Below are positions 3,168-57,409 of a stretch of 64,000 nt of DNA, piece by piece. Under the pieces are notes generated by a model. That model was not told the origin of the DNA. It worked only from the letters and a program-made list of their open reading frames with translations, and made no database searches. A program made the position numbers and the translations under genes. The DNA comes from Pelomonas sp. Root1237 (GTDB taxonomy: Bacteria; Pseudomonadota; Gammaproteobacteria; Burkholderiales; Burkholderiaceae_C). Each line of letters opens with the position of its first letter. Position 1 is the stretch's first letter. Where the stretch lies: NCBI RefSeq assembly GCF_001425055.1, contig NZ_LMDK01000001.1:633845-697844 (forward strand). The letters are read 5' to 3'.

Positions 3168-4736
3168 TCAGGACAGGCCCAAGCTGGGCTCCTGGTCGGC
3201 CTCGTCCACGGGCCGCGCTGGTATGGTCGCCAGCGCCAGCTCGGCGCTGTTCAGCGCCCCTTCGATGAAGCCCTGGTAGTCCGAATAGGCCTCGCCGACG
3301 ATGTGCAAGTTGCGCGCGCCGCTGCCGAAATCGAAGGCCTTGAAGGCGTCCATGACCTTCCACGAGCGCACGCCCGGCTGCCAGCCGTGGTTGGCCGCGC
3401 CGTAGGGCGCACGGGCCCAGTCGCGAATGCCATACGTGATGATGCTGTTGCGGATGTACTGGCTGGTCTCGGCCAGGCTCAGGTCGCCAAAGACGCGCCG
3501 TGCGTTGTCGGTCAACTTCAAGGCCGACTCGGCATTCGCATCCGCCGCCCGCTTCACGTCGCGGGCCACGAAGAGGGTGAAGGCATCGACGATGCGCGCG
3601 TTCTGGTCCACCTCGGCGCGGTCGTGGCGGTCGCCGTCGATGACGTAGTGGCGCCAGAACTCGGTGGACGGGCGGTCCATGTAGAGCAGCACCATGCCGT
3701 GGCCGTCGGCGTCGGCCTCGGGGGCGCGGCGGAAGTAGTGGATCTCGCGCGTCGGCATGCAGTTGGCGTATTGCTGCGGCGCCTGGCCGTAGCTCCACCA
3801 CGGCGTGTTGCAGACGAAGAAGACCTTCAGCATCGGGAAGCCATTGACGCAGTCCAGCTGCGAGCCGATGTGCTCGGGCAGGTGGCGCGTCAGCTTGAGC
3901 AGCGGCAGGCGCGGCAGCGCGAGGATCAGCCGCTCGGCGCGCAGCGTGAGGGCGCCGTTCTGCGTCGCCACGTCCAGGGCCAGCGTCGGCTTGCCCAGCT
4001 CCACGGGGCGCACGCCCATCAGCTTGTGGCCGCCGGCCAGCGTCACGTTGGCATGGCCGCGCAGCCGCGTGAGCAGCCCTTCGGTCAACTTGGCAGAGCC
4101 GCCCTCGATGCTGGCGAGCTGCTGGCCCACGGTCTTGAGCGCGCGCAGCCACCAGATGATCCATTCCGCCGCGTTCAGGTTCTCCGGGATCATGTGATAG
4201 AAAGTTCCGGTGTCGCGCAGCTTCACCAGCGCCCGGTGGCTCAGGATGCCCTGCGCCGACAACGCGTTCCAGAAGCCCATGTCCCACAGCGGCTGGCCGT
4301 GCAGCTGGGCGTGCTTGCGCAGCCGCATGTAGTCGCCTTCCGTCAGCGCATCGATCCAGGCCTGGTCATCGGGCGCACGGCCCATGATGAGCATGACCCC
4401 GCGCTTGAGCAGCTGCAGCGAGTTCAGGCCGCGCTCGGCCTCGGGCAGGTCGGTGTCATCGGTGCTGACCTGATCCGATGAAGGGCCGGAGAAATCGAGC
4501 AGGCCCACGCCGAGCTCGGCGCACAGGGCAGCGAAACGCGGCTGCAGCGTCGGCTCGAAGCGCATCGGCCCGTACTCGGCGATGAAGCCGTCCATGTCCT
4601 CGGTCTCGATGCGTCCGCCCCAGCGGTCGGCTGCGGCTTCGAGCACGAGGATGCGGTGGCCCGCGTCGGCCAGGCGCAGCGCGCAATACAGGCCCGACAC
4701 GCCGCCGCCGGCGATGACGATGTCATAGGTCGTCAT
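3168..4736 (-). CDS. FAD-dependent amine oxidase / flavin oxidoreductase
   Basis: This 522-aa protein has the Rossmann FAD-binding motif GGGVSGLYCALRLADAG immediately after the start, followed by VLEA and the GGRIET motif typical of monoamine-oxidase-type flavoproteins. Near the C-terminus NLHIVGEAYSDYQGFIEGA matches the second FAD-contacting segment of the family. The start at 4736 is fixed by the FAD motif, because the longer frame would add 22 residues before it. No export signal is seen, so a cytoplasmic enzyme is likely. The substrate cannot be told from the sequence. It precedes the erythromycin-esterase-like gene on the same strand. Confidence 0.85.
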   Translation of the reverse strand: MTTYDIVIAGGGVSGLYCALRLADAGHRILVLEAAADRWGGRIETEDMDGFIAEYGPMRFEPTLQPRFAALCAELGVGLLDFSGPSSDQVSTDDTDLPEAERGLNSLQLLKRGVMLIMGRAPDDQAWIDALTEGDYMRLRKHAQLHGQPLWDMGFWNALSAQGILSHRALVKLRDTGTFYHMIPENLNAAEWIIWWLRALKTVGQQLASIEGGSAKLTEGLLTRLRGHANVTLAGGHKLMGVRPVELGKPTLALDVATQNGALTLRAERLILALPRLPLLKLTRHLPEHIGSQLDCVNGFPMLKVFFVCNTPWWSYGQAPQQYANCMPTREIHYFRRAPEADADGHGMVLLYMDRPSTEFWRHYVIDGDRHDRAEVDQNARIVDAFTLFVARDVKRAADANAESALKLTDNARRVFGDLSLAETSQYIRNSIITYGIRDWARAPYGAANHGWQPGVRSWKVMDAFKAFDFGSGARNLHIVGEAYSDYQGFIEGALNSAELALATIPARPVDEADQEPSLGLS

Positions 4737-5100
4737 GGGAATGCTCCACTTGTATGTACAACTGGGGCGGGAGCATATCGGAGGCGGCGCCGCGGCTACC
4801 ATCGCGGCCCTTTTGCTGTGAGCGCGATCCCTGGATCCACGAAGGCGACGCGGAGACCCTCATGCCCAGTGCGATGTGACGGTCATCGCGGCCTTCTACG
4901 CCCGTGGCTTCAAGCGCGTCAGGGGCTATGCGATGGCGCCGGTGCCGCTGTGGCGGGCAGTGAGAGCGGCGGAGAGTTCTATTCGGAGCCCCTGATTCAG
5001 GGCCTTCTCCGGGCGCCACTGAGTCCCGCACGCTAGCTGACGGCAAGCGAGACAGAAGGCAACGATTGCCCTGTCGCGCCGCACCATCGAGCCGGATGCG
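4737..5100. other. 364-bp intergenic stretch without a convincing gene
   Basis: Short open stretches occur in several frames, for example a frame around 4860-4990 reading ARGFKRVRGYAMAPVPLW, but none has a start with a ribosome-binding site or a recognisable family. They may be decayed coding sequence. The promoter of the amine oxidase gene should lie at the left end. I see no tRNA, repeat or strong terminator here. Confidence 0.5.
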
Positions 5101-6853: not shown

Positions 6854-7762
6854 TCACGACGTCAGGAACGAAGCTGAGAGCCTCCCGACTGCATCGGTCG
6901 CAAGGATGTTGTAGTGGCTGGCCCCAGGCACGATGGCCAGTTGGGCAGGCGCGCGCTGCGAGCCATCCAGTCCGGCATCGCGCTGCCCACCGCCGAGCAG
7001 CTTGTAGAACTCGACGATGTGCTCCGGCCGCATGGCGTCTGCGTCGGCAAAGATGAGCATCGTCGGTGCCTTGATGCCGGCGACCGCGGCCGACCAGTCG
7101 TAGTCGTGACTTTCCATCTCGGCGATGCGGCGCATCAGCTGTTCCCAGTCGACCTCCGGGTAGAGCTTGCCCATCGGCGACTGCTTGAGATGGCCGCCGA
7201 TCATGGGCGCATTGGTGGCCATCTGGTCGAAGGCGGCGAGCACTTCGGGGAACCAGGCCGAGCGCTTCATGGCTTGGGAAACGACGACCAGGCGGTCGAC
7301 CAGGGAGGGGTGGCGAATCGCGAGCTGCAGTGCCACGCCCCCGCCGAGCGAATAGCCCATCACCGCAGCCTTCTTCAGGCCGAGGTGCTCGATCAGGGCC
7401 GCAACATCATCGGCAAGCGTCTCGAAGCGCAGCGGCCGGTCAACGTCGCGGGTGTGTCCGTGGCCTTGCATGTGCACGGCGATGACCTGATGCGAGGCGG
7501 CCAGAAGAGGCAGATTGGCGCCGAAGGCCTCGCTGGCGGCAACACCGCCATGCAGCAGCACCAGCGGCTTGCCGTTGCCGTGCACCTCGTAGTACATCTT
7601 CTGGCCGTGGATCGAGGCGTAGGCGGTCTTGGGGCTCTGCGATGTCATGGTCGTTGCTCCTGATGCGAGGGTGGTGGGGGCCGCCGGAGTGACGGCGGAA
7701 AAAGCCCTTGCCGGCAGTGCGGCGGCGGCCAAGGCGGTGAGAAAGCGGCGTCTTTCGAACAT
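6854..7762 (-). CDS. alpha/beta hydrolase with N-terminal export signal
   Basis: This 302-aa alpha/beta-fold hydrolase has the oxyanion-region motif VLLHGG, the nucleophile elbow GYSLGG and a final GASHYN histidine motif, with an acidic residue in FADADAMRP. The start is supported by AAAGGAG eight bases upstream. It gives an N-terminus with arginines and a hydrophobic stretch (RRRFLTALAAAALPARAFSA) resembling a Tat or Sec signal, so the enzyme may be periplasmic. An internal Met at 7648 would give a cytoplasmic form. It lies 90 bp downstream of the TetR gene and upstream of the flavin monooxygenase, so a role in the same pathway, such as ester or ring-product hydrolysis, is inferred. Confidence 0.85.
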   Translation of the reverse strand: MFERRRFLTALAAAALPARAFSAVTPAAPTTLASGATTMTSQSPKTAYASIHGQKMYYEVHGNGKPLVLLHGGVAASEAFGANLPLLAASHQVIAVHMQGHGHTRDVDRPLRFETLADDVAALIEHLGLKKAAVMGYSLGGGVALQLAIRHPSLVDRLVVVSQAMKRSAWFPEVLAAFDQMATNAPMIGGHLKQSPMGKLYPEVDWEQLMRRIAEMESHDYDWSAAVAGIKAPTMLIFADADAMRPEHIVEFYKLLGGGQRDAGLDGSQRAPAQLAIVPGASHYNILATDAVGRLSASFLTS

Positions 7763-19007: not shown

Positions 19008-20528
19008 TCAGTACAGCCGGATCGCCGAATCGAAATGCCAGGTACGGCGGATCTCGATGACGTCGTACTCGCGCGCCAGCGCCGGCGTGAAGGCCGGGTA
19101 GTTGGCCTGGCTCTCAATGACGCGGCGGATGGCCTCGTCCAGCGCCGGCACGCCGCTGGAGCGGTAGAAGCTGACCGACTCCACCGTGCCGTCGGCGCGA
19201 ATGGCAACCGTCACGAGCGGGTCGGTGTAGGGTTGCTTGATCGCGTCGCGGACGAGGTCGAAGGTCTGGTTGAACTGGATCTTGCGCGCCCAGGCCTCGG
19301 CGTAGAGCACCATCTCGGCGTTGGCATCGGTGCGGCCGAAGAGGCGGCCGCGGCGGGCGCTGCTCCAGGACGAGGGCAGGTTGGAGGGGGCCTGGCGTGC
19401 AGCATCCCGTTGGGCATCACGCTTGGCGGCTTCCTCGTTGAGCTGCTGGCCGATGGCGCGCAGCCGGGCTTCGCGCTGCTCCTCGGCGGCCTTGGCCTCG
19501 GCCAGCTTGGCGGCCGCGGCGCGGGCGGCTTCCTGGCGAGCCGCCTCTTGGCGCCCGGCTTCCTGTCGTGCGGCCTCCTGCCTGGCGGACTCGGCGGCCT
19601 GACGGGCGGCTTCGGTGCGTGCTGCCTCCTGGCGAGCCGTTTCCTGGCGCGCGGCCTCTTGCCGGGTTGCTTCCGCGCGCGCGGCCTCGGCGCGGGCGGT
19701 CTCCTGCCGAGCCGCGTCCTGTTGCGCCGCGAGTCGGCGTTCGGCCTCCAGCCGTGCCGCTTCCTGCTTCGCGGCGGCCTGGCGCTGGGCTTCCTGGCGT
19801 TCGGCTTCCAGCCGCGCCGCCTCGGCACGGGCCGCTGCCTCTTGACGTGCAGCCTCCTTGCGAGCGGCCTCCTGTCGGGTCGCCTCCTGTTTCGCAGCCT
19901 CCAGTCGTTCCGCTTCGGCCAGTTTTTCCGTCTGCTGCTGGGCTTGCTGTTGGGTGTCGCGCCTGGCGCGGTCGAGCTGGGCCATTTCGGCGGCGCGCTC
20001 GCGGGCCTCGCGATCCAGTGCGGCGCGTGTGCTGTCGTCGCGCGTCAGCGTGGTCAGGGCGCTGGAGGCGGCCGAGAGGGCCGCGATGACGGGGGCGGAG
20101 GCCGGGGGTTGAGGCGGCACCGTCCAGGTCGTTTCGCTGGGCCGCTCCACGGCGATGACGGCCGGGGCGGGGAGGGGTGGCGGTGCCTCATCGGCCGCCG
20201 GGGCGCGTGGCGCCGGCACAGCCGAGGTTTCGGACGGCGCAAGCGGTTCGGCGGGCAGGGGCGATGGCTCAGCGGCAGGCGCTGGCGGCGGGGTGACCAG
20301 CACGACGCGCAGGTCGGGCACCTCGGCGCGGCGGGCCTGCCAGGGCAAGCTCAGGCCGGGCAGGCCCAGGCCTTCACCGCCAAAGGTCAGGCTCAGCAGC
20401 AGCCCATGGGCCACCAGAGAGATCAGCAGGGCCCGCGCCGGGCCGTGGCGCGATCTCCGCGGCCAGGAGGGGGCGGTTTCAGCGGCGAGCGCCTGCGCGA
20501 GGCTGGGGCCTGAAGACCAGCGGCTCAA
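19008..20528 (-). CDS. TolA/TonB-like energy transducer with long Ala-Arg-Gln-Glu repeat
   Basis: This 506-aa protein has TolA/TonB architecture. It has a single N-terminal membrane helix (ALLISLVAHGLLLSLTF), a proline-rich segment, a long helical domain built of variations on ARQEA (residues about 170-370), and a C-terminal TonB_C-type domain with PLVTVAIRADGTVESVSFYRSSGVPALDEAIRRVI. TolA spans the periplasm and links TolQR to Pal and TolB. No tolQ, tolR, tolB or pal gene is nearby, so this is either a displaced tolA or a paralogue. The start is a TTG with GGGG just upstream; no ATG is available before the membrane segment. The repeat DNA is prone to slippage, so its length may vary between strains. 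Confidence 0.82.
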   Translation of the reverse strand: MSRWSSGPSLAQALAAETAPSWPRRSRHGPARALLISLVAHGLLLSLTFGGEGLGLPGLSLPWQARRAEVPDLRVVLVTPPPAPAAEPSPLPAEPLAPSETSAVPAPRAPAADEAPPPLPAPAVIAVERPSETTWTVPPQPPASAPVIAALSAASSALTTLTRDDSTRAALDREARERAAEMAQLDRARRDTQQQAQQQTEKLAEAERLEAAKQEATRQEAARKEAARQEAAARAEAARLEAERQEAQRQAAAKQEAARLEAERRLAAQQDAARQETARAEAARAEATRQEAARQETARQEAARTEAARQAAESARQEAARQEAGRQEAARQEAARAAAAKLAEAKAAEEQREARLRAIGQQLNEEAAKRDAQRDAARQAPSNLPSSWSSARRGRLFGRTDANAEMVLYAEAWARKIQFNQTFDLVRDAIKQPYTDPLVTVAIRADGTVESVSFYRSSGVPALDEAIRRVIESQANYPAFTPALAREYDVIEIRRTWHFDSAIRLY

Positions 20529-37657: not shown

Positions 37658-37671
37658 GCAGCGAGGTGGGC

Positions 37672-37928
37672 CTGTGAACGCTACGGCAATGGGCTGAGAA
37701 GGCTCGCCGCCAGGGGCCAAGCAAGGCGCAGCACGCCGCCCGCACTCATGTGCGGGCAAGTGGTGCAACGCCGAGTGGCCCCTGGCGGCGAGCCTTCCCG
37801 CAGGGTTGTGACCAGAAAGGCCGCGCGCCGCGTTGCAAATCCTCGCCGGGTACCCCACCCCGCTCCGGTTTGCGCCTTGCTCGCAGCCTTTCTGGTCACA
37901 ACTCAGCCTATTGCCGTAGCGTTCACAG
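37672..37928. repeat. structured three-arm repeat element, copy A
   Basis: An outer inverted repeat of 27 bp (37672-37698 with 37902-37928, one G-T pair) encloses two hairpin arms. The first arm pairs 37699-37719 with 37776-37796 perfectly over 21 bp and has an inner GCCCGCAC/GTGCGGGC hairpin (37738-37757). The second pairs GTTGTGACCAGAAAGGC (37805-37821) perfectly with 37886-37902. A second copy lies at 55985-56251 in opposite orientation. The element fills nearly all of the space between the divergent starts of a diguanylate cyclase and an SDR gene. It has no coding capacity of its own. A non-autonomous mobile element with a folded RNA or DNA is one explanation. Confidence 0.85.
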
Positions 37929-37962
37929 TCCCCGGACGCGCATCTTCTCCGACAACGCCACA

Positions 37963-46866: not shown

Positions 46867-46942
46867 TGGTGCGCCCGGTTGGGATCGAACCAACAACCCC
46901 TGCCTTCGGAGGGCAGTACTCTATCCATTGAGCTACGGGCGC
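46867..46942 (-). tRNA. tRNA-Arg (anticodon CCG)
   Basis: The minus strand folds as a standard 76-nt tRNA. The acceptor stem is GCGCCCG/CGGGCGC followed by A and an encoded CCA. The D arm contains TAGCTCAATGGATAGAG, the anticodon stem is CTGCC/GGCAG around the loop CTCCGAA with anticodon CCG, and the T arm contains GGTTCGATCC. It reads CGG arginine codons. A TAGAAT sequence at 46953-46958 (minus strand) is a candidate -10 box. Confidence 0.97.
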
Positions 46943-54605: not shown

Positions 54606-55970
54606 TCAAATGAGCCCGCGCAAGACCTCGATGGCTTGCTCCACCCGCTCGACGGCATGGATGGTCAGCCCCTCGATGGCCTTCTTGGGCGCATTCGCCT
54701 TGGGCACGACGGCGACGCTGAAGCCCAGCTTGGCGGCCTCCTTGAGGCGCTCCTGGCCGCGCGGCGCGGGGCGAACCTCGCCGGCCAGGCCGACCTCGCC
54801 AAAGGCGATGAAGCCACGCGGCAGGGCCTTGCCGCGCAGCGAACTCTGGATGGCCAGCAGCACGGCCAGGTCGGCCGCCGGCTCGCTGATGCGCACGCCG
54901 CCGACGGCGTTGACGAACACGTCCTGGTCGCCGGTGGCCACGCCCGCATGCCGGTGCAGCACGGCCAGCAGCATCGCGAGGCGGTCACGGTCCAGGCCCA
55001 CCGACAACCGCCGCGGGCTGACACCGCCGCTGTCCACCAGTGCCTGCAGCTCGACCAGCAGCGGCCGCGTGCCTTCCAGCGTCACCAGCACGCAGCTGCC
55101 CGGCACGGGCTCGGCGTGGGTGGACAGGAAGATGGCGCTCGGGTTGGTGACGCCCTTGAGCCCCTTCTCCGTCATCGCGAACACGCCGATCTCGTTGACC
55201 GCGCCGAAGCGGTTCTTGATGGCGCGCACCAGGCGGAAGCTGCTGTGCGTGTCGCCCTCGAAATACAGCACCGTGTCGACGATGTGCTCCAGCACACGCG
55301 GGCCGGCCAGCGCACCTTCCTTGGTCACATGACCCACCAGCACGATGGCACAGCCGCGCGCCTTGGCCGTGCGTGTGAGCTGGGCCGCGCATTCGCGCAC
55401 CTGGGCGACGGAGCCGGGCGCTGAAGAGAGCTGCTCGGAGTACAGCGTCTGGATGGAGTCGATGACGCAGAAGTCGGGCTCCTCGACGTCGATGGTGGCG
55501 AGGATGCGCTCCAGGCTGATCTCGGCCAGCACGCGCACCTTGGCGCCCGACAGGCCCAGGCGCCGCGAGCGCATCGCGACCTGGGCGCCGCTTTCCTCGC
55601 CGGTCACGTACAGGACTTTCACGGTTTGCGACAACGACTCAACCGCCTGCAGCAGCAGCGTCGACTTGCCGATGCCCGGATCGCCGCCGATCAGCACGAC
55701 GCCGCCGGCGACGATGCCTCCGCCCAGCACCCGGTCCAGCTCTTCCTGGCCCGTGGGCGTGCGCTCGAAGTCGCTGGCCTCGATCTCGGAGAGCGTGGCC
55801 ACCGGCTGGCTCTTGGCCAGCGACTGGTAGCGGTTCTTGACGCCGCCGGTGGGCTCGGCGATGCCCTCGGTCAGCGTGTTCCAGGCGCCGCAGTGCGGGC
55901 ATTTGCCCAGCCATTTGGCGTTGGTGCCGCCGCATTCGGTGCAGGTGTAGATGCTCTTGCTTGTCGCCAT
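54606..55970 (-). CDS. radA: DNA repair protein RadA (Sms)
   Basis: This 454-aa RecA-like ATPase promotes branch migration in recombination. The N-terminal zinc finger is CTECGGTNAKWLGKCPHCG (residues 10-28). Walker A is GGDPGIGKSTLLLQ near 95, Walker B is the FCVIDSIQTL segment, and the RadA-specific KNRFG motif is IKNRFGAVNEIG. A C-terminal Lon-protease-like domain follows. Its start is 15 bp from the structured repeat, copy B, so the leader of radA must include part of that element or start within it. Confidence 0.96.
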   Translation of the reverse strand: MATSKSIYTCTECGGTNAKWLGKCPHCGAWNTLTEGIAEPTGGVKNRYQSLAKSQPVATLSEIEASDFERTPTGQEELDRVLGGGIVAGGVVLIGGDPGIGKSTLLLQAVESLSQTVKVLYVTGEESGAQVAMRSRRLGLSGAKVRVLAEISLERILATIDVEEPDFCVIDSIQTLYSEQLSSAPGSVAQVRECAAQLTRTAKARGCAIVLVGHVTKEGALAGPRVLEHIVDTVLYFEGDTHSSFRLVRAIKNRFGAVNEIGVFAMTEKGLKGVTNPSAIFLSTHAEPVPGSCVLVTLEGTRPLLVELQALVDSGGVSPRRLSVGLDRDRLAMLLAVLHRHAGVATGDQDVFVNAVGGVRISEPAADLAVLLAIQSSLRGKALPRGFIAFGEVGLAGEVRPAPRGQERLKEAAKLGFSVAVVPKANAPKKAIEGLTIHAVERVEQAIEVLRGLI

Positions 55971-55984
55971 CAGCGCATTGTCTT

Positions 55985-56251
55985 AGGGTCTGCTGACACG
56001 GTGGCAATGGGCCGCGTTGTGACCAGAAGGGTCGCGAGCAAGGCGCAAAGCGGAGCCGGGTTGGGCACCCGGCGAGCATTTGCAACGCCGCGCGCGGCCT
56101 TTCTGGTCACAACCCTTCGGGAAGACCGGCAGCCAGGGGCCACTCGGCGTTGCACCGCTTGCCCGCACATGAGTGCGGGCGGCTCGTTGCGCCTTGATTG
56201 GCCCCTGGCTGCCGGCCTTCGCGGCCCATTGCCGCCGTGTCAGCAGACCCT
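55985..56251. repeat. structured three-arm repeat element, copy B
   Basis: The outer inverted repeat pairs 55986-56013 with 56223-56250 (28 bp, one T-G pair). It encloses an arm with GTTGTGACCAGAA (56016-56028) paired to 56102-56114, which has an inner GCCGGGT/ACCCGGC hairpin. A second arm pairs 56123-56143 with 56199-56219, with one A-C mismatch and an inner CCCGCAC/GTGCGGG hairpin. The order of arms is the reverse of copy A (37672-37928). The arm ends GTTGTGACCAGAA and CAGGGGCC are conserved between copies while other stem positions change on both strands together. The element spans the gap between an MFS gene and radA, and its end overlaps the last codons of the MFS gene. Confidence 0.85.
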
Positions 56252-57409
56252 GGGGCGCACCCAGGCTGTCAGCAGCAGTGCGGCGGCCAGCGCGCAGCCA
56301 GCCGAGAAGCCGAAGGCGACGGTCGCCGACAGGCCCTCCCACAGCCAGCCGAACAGCAGCGAGGCCGGCAGCAGCATGGCGCCCATGACGAGGTTGAGCC
56401 AGCCGAAGGCGGTGCCGCGCTGTTCGGCCGGCGCCAGGTCGGCCAGCAACGCGCGCTCGACGCCCTCCGTCGCGGCCATGAAGATGCCGTAGAGGCCGAA
56501 CAGCAGGTACAGCCGCCAGCCCGGCGCGGCCCACGCCGCCATGCCGATGTAGAAGGCGGCATAGGCGACATAGCCGGCCACCAGCAGGTGAACGCGGCCG
56601 ACGCGGTCCGACAACCCGCCCAGCGGCACCGCGAACAGCGCCGCGACGCCCGACACCGCGGCCCACAGCAACGGCACCTGCGCCTCGGCGACGCCGAGCT
56701 CCTTGGCGCGCAGCAGCAGGAACATGTTGCTGGAGTTGCCCAGCGTGAACAGCGCAACGACGACGAGGTAGCGCCGCAGCGGCTGGGGCAGGCCAGCCAG
56801 CGTCCAGCTGAAGCGCGGTGGCGCGGTGGCCGGTGGCGGGGCTTCCCGCACCGCCAGCGTCAGCCCCAGGCAGAGCAGGCCGGGAATGATGGCCCACAGG
56901 AAAACCTGGCCCAGCGGCACGCCCGCACCCAGCAGCGCCCAGGCCAGCAGCGGCCCGATGACGGCGCCGGCGTTGTCCATGGCGCGGTGCAGGCCGAAGG
57001 CCAGGCCGCGCTGGCCCGGCCCGATGTTGGCAGCCAGCAGCGCGTCACGCGGCGCGGCACGCACGGCCTTGGCGATACGGTCGGTCAGGCGCAGGGCCAG
57101 CAGCATGGGCCAGCCGGTCACGAAGGCGATCAGCGGCCGTGCGATGCCGGCCAGGCCGTAGCCGGCGATGACCCAGGGTTTGCTGCGCCCGCTGCGGTCC
57201 ACCATGACGCCGGCCCAGAGCTTGAGCAGGCTGGCCAGAGCCTCGGCCAGGCCCTCGATGAGGCCCAGCACCCGCGGGCCGGCCATCAGCACGCCGCTCA
57301 GATACAAGGGCACGAGGGGGTAGATCAGCTCGCTGGCGCTGTCGTTGACGAGGCTGATCAGGCCGAGCAGCCAGACGCTGCGCGGCAGCGAGAAAAGGGC
57401 CCTGAGCAT
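56240..57409 (-). CDS. MFS transporter
   Basis: This 389-aa inner-membrane protein has 12 predicted helices. It starts MLRALFSLPRSVWLLGLISLVNDSASELIYPLVPLYLSG and carries motif A variants WAGVMVDRSGRSKP and GGLSDRVGRVHLL. The N-terminal SLVNDSASEMIYP-type signature is shared with a group of uncharacterised MFS permeases. The substrate is unknown. Its stop and last four codons lie within the end of structured repeat copy B, so the repeat may have joined or changed the C-terminus. Confidence 0.9.
   Translation of the reverse strand: MLRALFSLPRSVWLLGLISLVNDSASELIYPLVPLYLSGVLMAGPRVLGLIEGLAEALASLLKLWAGVMVDRSGRSKPWVIAGYGLAGIARPLIAFVTGWPMLLALRLTDRIAKAVRAAPRDALLAANIGPGQRGLAFGLHRAMDNAGAVIGPLLAWALLGAGVPLGQVFLWAIIPGLLCLGLTLAVREAPPPATAPPRFSWTLAGLPQPLRRYLVVVALFTLGNSSNMFLLLRAKELGVAEAQVPLLWAAVSGVAALFAVPLGGLSDRVGRVHLLVAGYVAYAAFYIGMAAWAAPGWRLYLLFGLYGIFMAATEGVERALLADLAPAEQRGTAFGWLNLVMGAMLLPASLLFGWLWEGLSATVAFGFSAGCALAAALLLTAWVRPRVC

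Follow-up and report, generated by a model that had tools for sequence, protein, structure and literature searches.

The window, a 64,000-nt stretch of Pelomonas sp. Root1237 DNA, contains two copies of a strongly structured repeat, and one of them (copy B) occupies nearly the entire gap in front of radA (start at 55970), while its other end reaches into an MFS transporter gene. The question raised by this locus, and left by its preliminary description, is whether the compensatory differences between the two copies reflect selection on a folded RNA, or the repeat is mobile and depends on the pairing of its ends. Our analysis supports the mobile element. Copy B is best explained, with a probability of about 0.8, as a non-autonomous MITE of the IS5 type with an unusual Y-shaped anatomy, this account jointly including mobilization in trans, targeting of CTAG and template switching between the arms.

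The element proper of copy B starts with GGG and ends with CCC, directly flanked by A (55985) and T (56251), which agrees with its initial delimitation at 55985-56251. Copies A and B share the same layout in opposite orientations and are 84% complementary over 265 nt (Table 1). Moreover, the arm ends are conserved, while the outer stems differ and still are paired in each copy, as first described; the complementarity of the end stems is 97% in B (32 nt) and 94% in A (31 nt). Both strands of copy B fold into a Y composed of an outer stem of ~31-36 bp and two hairpin arms, with the folding energy of -218.7 kcal/mol (z -18.1) on the plus strand and -206.8 kcal/mol (z -15.3) on the other one. The list of open reading frames contains, within copy B, only the tail of the MFS gene and overlapping frames that look like chance. 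A length of 267 bp, terminal inverted repeats of 31-32 nt and the absence of its own transposase are all typical of a MITE. At the gathering threshold, Rfam models do not match the element, the sole match in the window being a tRNA at 46870-46942. No promoter-like site was found at the copy B locus, and an intrinsic terminator, considered there as well, was rejected, as none was found.

Table 1. Positions of copy B, its structural parts, the adjoining genes and copy A in the window.
Feature	Coordinates	Strand	Evidence
Y-shaped MITE-like element, copy B	55986..56250	+	sequence, own-genome search, fold; missing beside radA in 17/17 other genomes having a long match to radA
Outer stem, left half / terminal inverted repeat (GGGTCTGCTGACACGG...)	55985..56015	+	helix 1: two-sided changes in 25/31 pairs
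Arm 1 hairpin (GTTGTGACCAGAA...TTCTGGTCACAAC)	56016..56113	+	fold, covariation (helices 2-4)
Hairpin core 1 (CAAGGCGCAAAGCGGAGCC...GGCGAGCATTTGCAACGC)	56039..56088	+	core-string searches
Junction linker CCTTCGG	56114..56120	+	fold, alignment of copies
Arm 2 hairpin (AAGACCGGCAGCCAGGGGCC...)	56121..56220	+	fold, covariation (helices 5-6)
Hairpin core 2, diverged, reversed relative to core 1	56147..56196	-	by eye from sequence
Outer stem, right half / terminal inverted repeat	56221..56251	+	end complementarity, covariation
radA-like gene downstream of copy B	54606..55970	-	Zn-ribbon, AAA/KaiC-type ATPase and Lon-C-like Pfam matches
MFS transporter gene, last codons and stop inside copy B	56240..57409	-	ORF calling, Pfam MFS_1
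Copy A, same family	37668..37932	-	84% complementary to B; own-genome search

A DNA search of the same genome with copy B yielded 48 matching rows, of which 18 represent copies of near-full length, with 232 to 267 of the 267 query bases matched. Among the relatives drawn, 30 of 60 genomes, the own genome counted, have a match, and the exact core string is present in 16 stretches of named records, which come from strains of Pelomonas, from Roseateles saccharophilus and from two Burkholderiaceae/Comamonadaceae MAGs. Location of the whole element on plasmids was considered and rejected, no match being found in plasmid records; a single core, taken from L276, matches seven such records. Literature searches on intergenic repeats of Burkholderiales, IS5 MITEs, repeats of Pelomonas and Roseateles, and the end strings yielded no description of the element (the end-string match examined was a PCR primer); in these searches and in Rfam nothing identified the family as a REP or MITE that has been described and assigned a function, an outcome envisaged beforehand as one that would settle the matter differently. 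Two further groups of related repeats have been observed: another Y-like sub-family, whose arm stems differ (GTTGCCACTCAAAAGCC...), represented by L020, L021, L024-L027, L029 and L030, and minimal palindromes consisting of the Y outer stem only, with the arms absent (L177, about 204-250, and L281). A separate repeat of 96 nt is present in the window at 19484-19918 as ten overlapping copies, spaced mostly in a 15-base register.

The insertions are polymorphic. In the sister species G002, compared at 17 of the 18 own-genome sites (L015 was left out, its flanks having no match among those listed), 15 sites are empty, one (L005) is occupied, and one (L010) holds an internally deleted remnant; thus, the family is multi-copy with variable sites, as expected of MITEs. 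Near radA, no element is present in any of the 17 other genomes of the genus with a long radA match; by eye, radA still adjoins the MFS gene in about nine of them and has a different neighbor in the others. At the L018 site, the empty allele of G002 (L118) retains GCGCCTGT between two TA, resembling an excision footprint. L017 and its counterpart in G009 (L150) are the same insertion in two species, absent from G002; as G002 is nearer than G009 to the own genome at radA, this suggests loss or lateral exchange.

The preliminary description also proposed looking for target-site duplications, and these have been seen in part. An exact CTAG duplication flanks copy L151 of G010, compared with empty alleles in two other species; L154 of the same genome fits a CTAG duplication, with the last 10-14 bases of its left flank diverged, and L153 is too diverged to read. 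Orthologous sites were few in the family-wide draw around G010. In the own genome, on the other hand, TA is present on both sides of just one of the 18 copies. Over the 65 copies analyzed below, TA is found on the left in 38, on the right in 38, and on both sides in 24 (two left ends were not scored), with TA constituting 1.0% of the window. The 15 empty sites of G002 show 3-10 unaligned target bases in 12 cases, none in one, and 16 and 20 in two, and comparison with further genomes is similarly untidy; clean DDE transposition does not predict such junctions, which count against the IS5-type account.

Copies of the family frequently touch gene ends. As had been noticed at the outset, copy B supplies the last codons of the MFS gene, the protein ending in ...VRPRVC* with the stop codon (56240-56242) within the element. 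The C-terminus is ...AWVRPRVC* here, compared with ...AWVRPAATMR* in G002, where the MFS stop overlaps the radA start by one base, which implies that the insertion parted the two genes by about 270 bp of hairpin. A codon-usage ORF script identified 18 gene 3' ends directed at the 18 copies of the own genome; in eight of these the stop TAG is made of the adjoining TA and the first G of the element, and in three the stop lies at element positions 9-11. The arrangement of the flanking genes is 5'/5' in five cases, 3'/3' in five, and mixed in eight. In the window, CTAG occurs 21 times, whereas base composition predicts 184 occurrences.

With the end pattern AGGGYCTGTTNACRC, an IS of about 825 bp was located at a contig end of the own genome (L173); three more contig ends carry partial copies. 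The search for a transposase with matching ends was thus successful: the IS ends GGGCCTGTTAACACTA are identical to the element consensus ends over 16 nt, and the terminal repeats are therefore common with an autonomous element of the same genome. Its two overlapping frames match DUF4096 (1.5e-21), DDE_Tnp_1 (2.3e-12) and the NCBIfam IS5 family model; we take it to belong to the IS427-like group of this family. In the region L173 564-1550 the IS is accompanied by a truncated copy, and the contig ends L174, L175 and L176 break within further copies. Each of five IS copies examined with their flanks has CTAG on the left; on the right, CTAG is present in four, and in the fifth the contig ends after CTA. 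Relatives of the IS (75-79%) are found on plasmids of Variovorax, Polaromonas and Pseudomonas, and the three examined have similar ends beside CTAG.

The distribution of the IS does not follow that of the element. A DNA search of 12 genomes found the full IS in two, weak short matches in two more and none in eight, with 100% identity in G002; the transposase model gave no match over the cut-off in six of eight genomes holding Y copies, so the partner elsewhere is either lost or different. In particular, G026 holds Y copies with no detected IS partner, as it has no NF033580 match and no end pair at the IS distance among the matches listed (up to one mismatch).

Three observations, the ends shared with the IS, the empty sites in relatives and the CTAG duplication, assign the element to MITEs of the IS5 type. 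The likely scenario is that an IS5-family transposase recognizes terminal inverted repeats of the 5'-GGGCCTGTTAACACTA type in trans and inserts the element at TA within CTAG-like sites. The copies would collect at gene ends because CTAG is rare in GC-rich DNA and can coincide with TAG stops; copy B would thereby have landed in the last MFS codons, providing the gene with another stop and moving it away from radA. Of the two options offered initially, the mobile element is thus retained, being consistent with the terminal repeats, empty sites and CTAG/TA flanks, while its proposed need for pairing ends is superfluous, as the paired ends resemble transposase terminal repeats. Pairing of the inner arms is not explained by transposition alone.

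The pairing was analyzed in 65 of 68 copies extracted from 15 genomes (L134, L171 and L172, truncated or tandem, were left out). When the structure of copy B is applied to them, standard pairs occupy 95.8% of 6889 cells. Two-sided changes are observed in 71 of 110 pairs, compared with a mean of 35.2 in shuffles, none of 500 shuffles reaching 71, and with 19-33 in slid controls; relatedness of the copies is kept by the slid control and lost in the shuffle control, and identical rows were merged for this count (63 distinct of 65). The pair counts exclude two pairs occupied by G-T in almost every copy, and the counts of double changes and covariation also omit two linker pairs. Furthermore, 5.9% of pairs are not Watson-Crick within one copy, compared with 18.0% if the sides are drawn from different copies. 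Both the covariation counts and this within- versus between-copy difference demonstrate that the compensatory changes first seen between A and B are genuine and family-wide; genome-wide copies covary strongly, contrary to the refuting outcome named in the preliminary description.

The types of changes were considered in nearest-neighbor copies (40 pairs, not independent, with divergence up to 12%; L161 and L168 were left out). Here, 103 Watson-Crick double changes were observed, compared with 6.0 expected under independence, and 41 of them are of the transversion type, unable to pass via G.U. Transversion types make up a larger share of double changes than of single ones (62:41 vs 185:52, Fisher p 0.0009). 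In three pairs of copies occupying the same site in two species, with orthology defined by flank similarity only, 16 stem pairs are altered, four of them by Watson-Crick double changes, of which three are of the transversion type. Inverted arm tips are present in two of the 65 copies, L161 (arm 1) and L168 (arm 2), and in none of the other 63.

Our preferred, though unproven, cause of the maintained pairing is DNA template switching between the arms: at replication forks, one arm may template the other, which would yield both the double changes and the arm-tip inversions. In PMC8604942, homogenized arms and inverted spacers mark template switching between inverted repeats, and the case made in PMC8794818 is that RNA stems can be maintained in this way. 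We do not claim this cause as demonstrated, since transversion-rich double changes (p 0.0009) fit selection for pairing as well and the lean of G.T over A.C in the nearest-neighbor subset (111 vs 74) also counts against it, and some additional selection for pairing may act beside template switching.

The rival that survives best, a possible but doubtful one, indeed assumes selection on structure at the DNA level: the folded Y, or its cores, would be bound by a protein for transposition or for tolerance of a long palindrome, template switching being unnecessary. The excess of transversions among double changes agrees with it. Selection for mobility cannot explain the double changes at orthologous sites, though, since those copies stay put (insofar as flank similarity defines orthology); moreover, arm-tip inversions are tolerated in two of 65 copies, and the candidate binding protein is putative.

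Further arguments for this rival come from the hairpin core. The arm tip carries CAAGGCGCAAASCGNAGCC-hairpin-GGCGAGSATTTGCAACGC, in arm 2 in a diverged and reversed form (by eye). Among 250 genomes of the order, nine (the own one counted) have an exact match to the 3' half of the core, compared with none for the backward control pattern, and the 5' half also fits 28 of the 30 loci fetched by the 3' half, or 21 of 23 outside the own genome (the search itself determining the 3' letters). The own genome also has single palindromes with other ends that are tipped by the core. In G073, from another family, three of seven scanned loci hold a 270-bp element with the same layout, two cores, the AACCC-NNN-GGG linker and different ends, AGAGCCTGTTCAC; its identity to copy B is 63-66% over 192-210 aligned columns. 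The free fold of one of the core-bearing loci (L303) prefers another shape by 3.5 kcal/mol, with the Y close. In Rfam, five other core-bearing loci gave one chance-level match only, with E up to 5 allowed (E 2.8, 18.8 bits vs 70), and a literature search with six core strings found nothing among the papers covered. In a scan of viral contigs the core string was seen in 11 stretches, with scripted boundaries mostly uninformative; on one of the contigs (L327), two core-bearing repeats of 138 nt, 93% identical (4724-4861 and 7157-7294), lie 2.4 kb apart around a large ORF. We tentatively suggest that the Y layout (repeats of ~32 nt, two inverted bulged cores, the AACCC-NNN-GGG linker, 265-270 bp) might be an old order-wide module that swaps terminal repeats according to the IS5-type transposase, with the core as a putative protein ligand or palindrome-survival device selected as structure.

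A functional structured RNA, leader or regulatory, with stems kept by selection on the transcript, is improbable. It would agree with the very strong covariation, the stable fold and the leader position of copy B, and single changes in the nearest-neighbor subset lean to G.T (111 vs 74 A.C, p 0.008, the pairs being not independent), which leaves room for a mild lean of G.T over A.C. However, in columns that are at least 60% Watson-Crick, the mismatches of the 65 copies are 136 G.T vs 113 A.C (binomial p 0.16), or 137 vs 140 if column 24/244 is kept; hence, the initial remark that several positions are G-T, as tolerated by RNA, is right in that such positions are present and incomplete in that A.C is about as common. 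Also against an RNA are the copies in every arrangement relative to flanking genes, the sites empty in relatives, the lack of an Rfam match over the element and the 41 of 103 double changes not passing via G.U. The RNA half of the initial alternative is thus disfavored. The pairing looks like a DNA-level property and not like the signature of a new RNA gene: covariation in this family is genuine, yet it is weak evidence of RNA function.

There is very little chance that the family represents REP/BIME-type repeats, mobilized by a RAYT (Y1) transposase in the form of single-stranded DNA, with the inverted cores as a REP pair. The two inverted hairpins, whose bulges are conserved, the three Y1_Tnp genes of the genome and the clean duplication missing at most own-genome junctions speak for it, but this origin was rejected, as the RAYT of L092 is bordered by its own unrelated REP with a GTAG motif (by eye), no Y match lies inside the three RAYT loci among the matches listed, and the Y terminal repeats are common with the IS5 element and have TA/CTAG flanks. 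The L092 locus itself (C12:137712-138044 of the own genome) is a Y1/RAYT-type transposase gene flanked by GTAGGTTGGGGTGAG..., a REP unrelated to the Y element.

The family thus shares features with several known systems. IS5-family IS (NCBIfam NF033580 type) and derived MITEs have in common with the Y element the ends and CTAG/TA flanks; the IS has its transposase in two overlapping frames, while the 267-bp Y element has none, and differs in the interior not seen in the IS, in two long arms and in its occurrence in genomes without a detected partner. REP/BIME with RAYT also consist of paired inverted hairpins and are intergenic, whereas in the Y element no GTAG-type motif and no linkage to RAYT were seen, and the ends are of the IS5 type. 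Prokaryotic MITEs include Correia/NEMIS and RUP. Another example is QMITE2 of Coxiella, and MITEs of this type, as presented in PMC10969869, are short, coding-free and intergenic, with terminal repeats and a predicted stable stem-loop, like the Y element; compared with them, two internal arms with a common core, near-complete pairing and strong arm covariation distinguish the Y element. Template-switch (quasipalindrome) correction resembles the Y family in arm homogenization and spacer inversion, though PMC8794818 and PMC8604942 treat RNA genes and yeast coding DNA, and the Y family is a bacterial MITE.

Covariation of the textbook kind, usually read as strong evidence of functional RNA, is therefore observed in a mobile DNA palindrome without a clear RNA asymmetry. 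This makes the Y family a test bed for template switching versus selection, and RNA discovery based on covariation should take it as a warning. The hairpin core is shared, across several families of the order, by palindromes whose ends differ. As for the genes, the insertion of copy B suggests that a target at gene ends (CTAG/TAG) may let a MITE part overlapping genes with neither of them broken.
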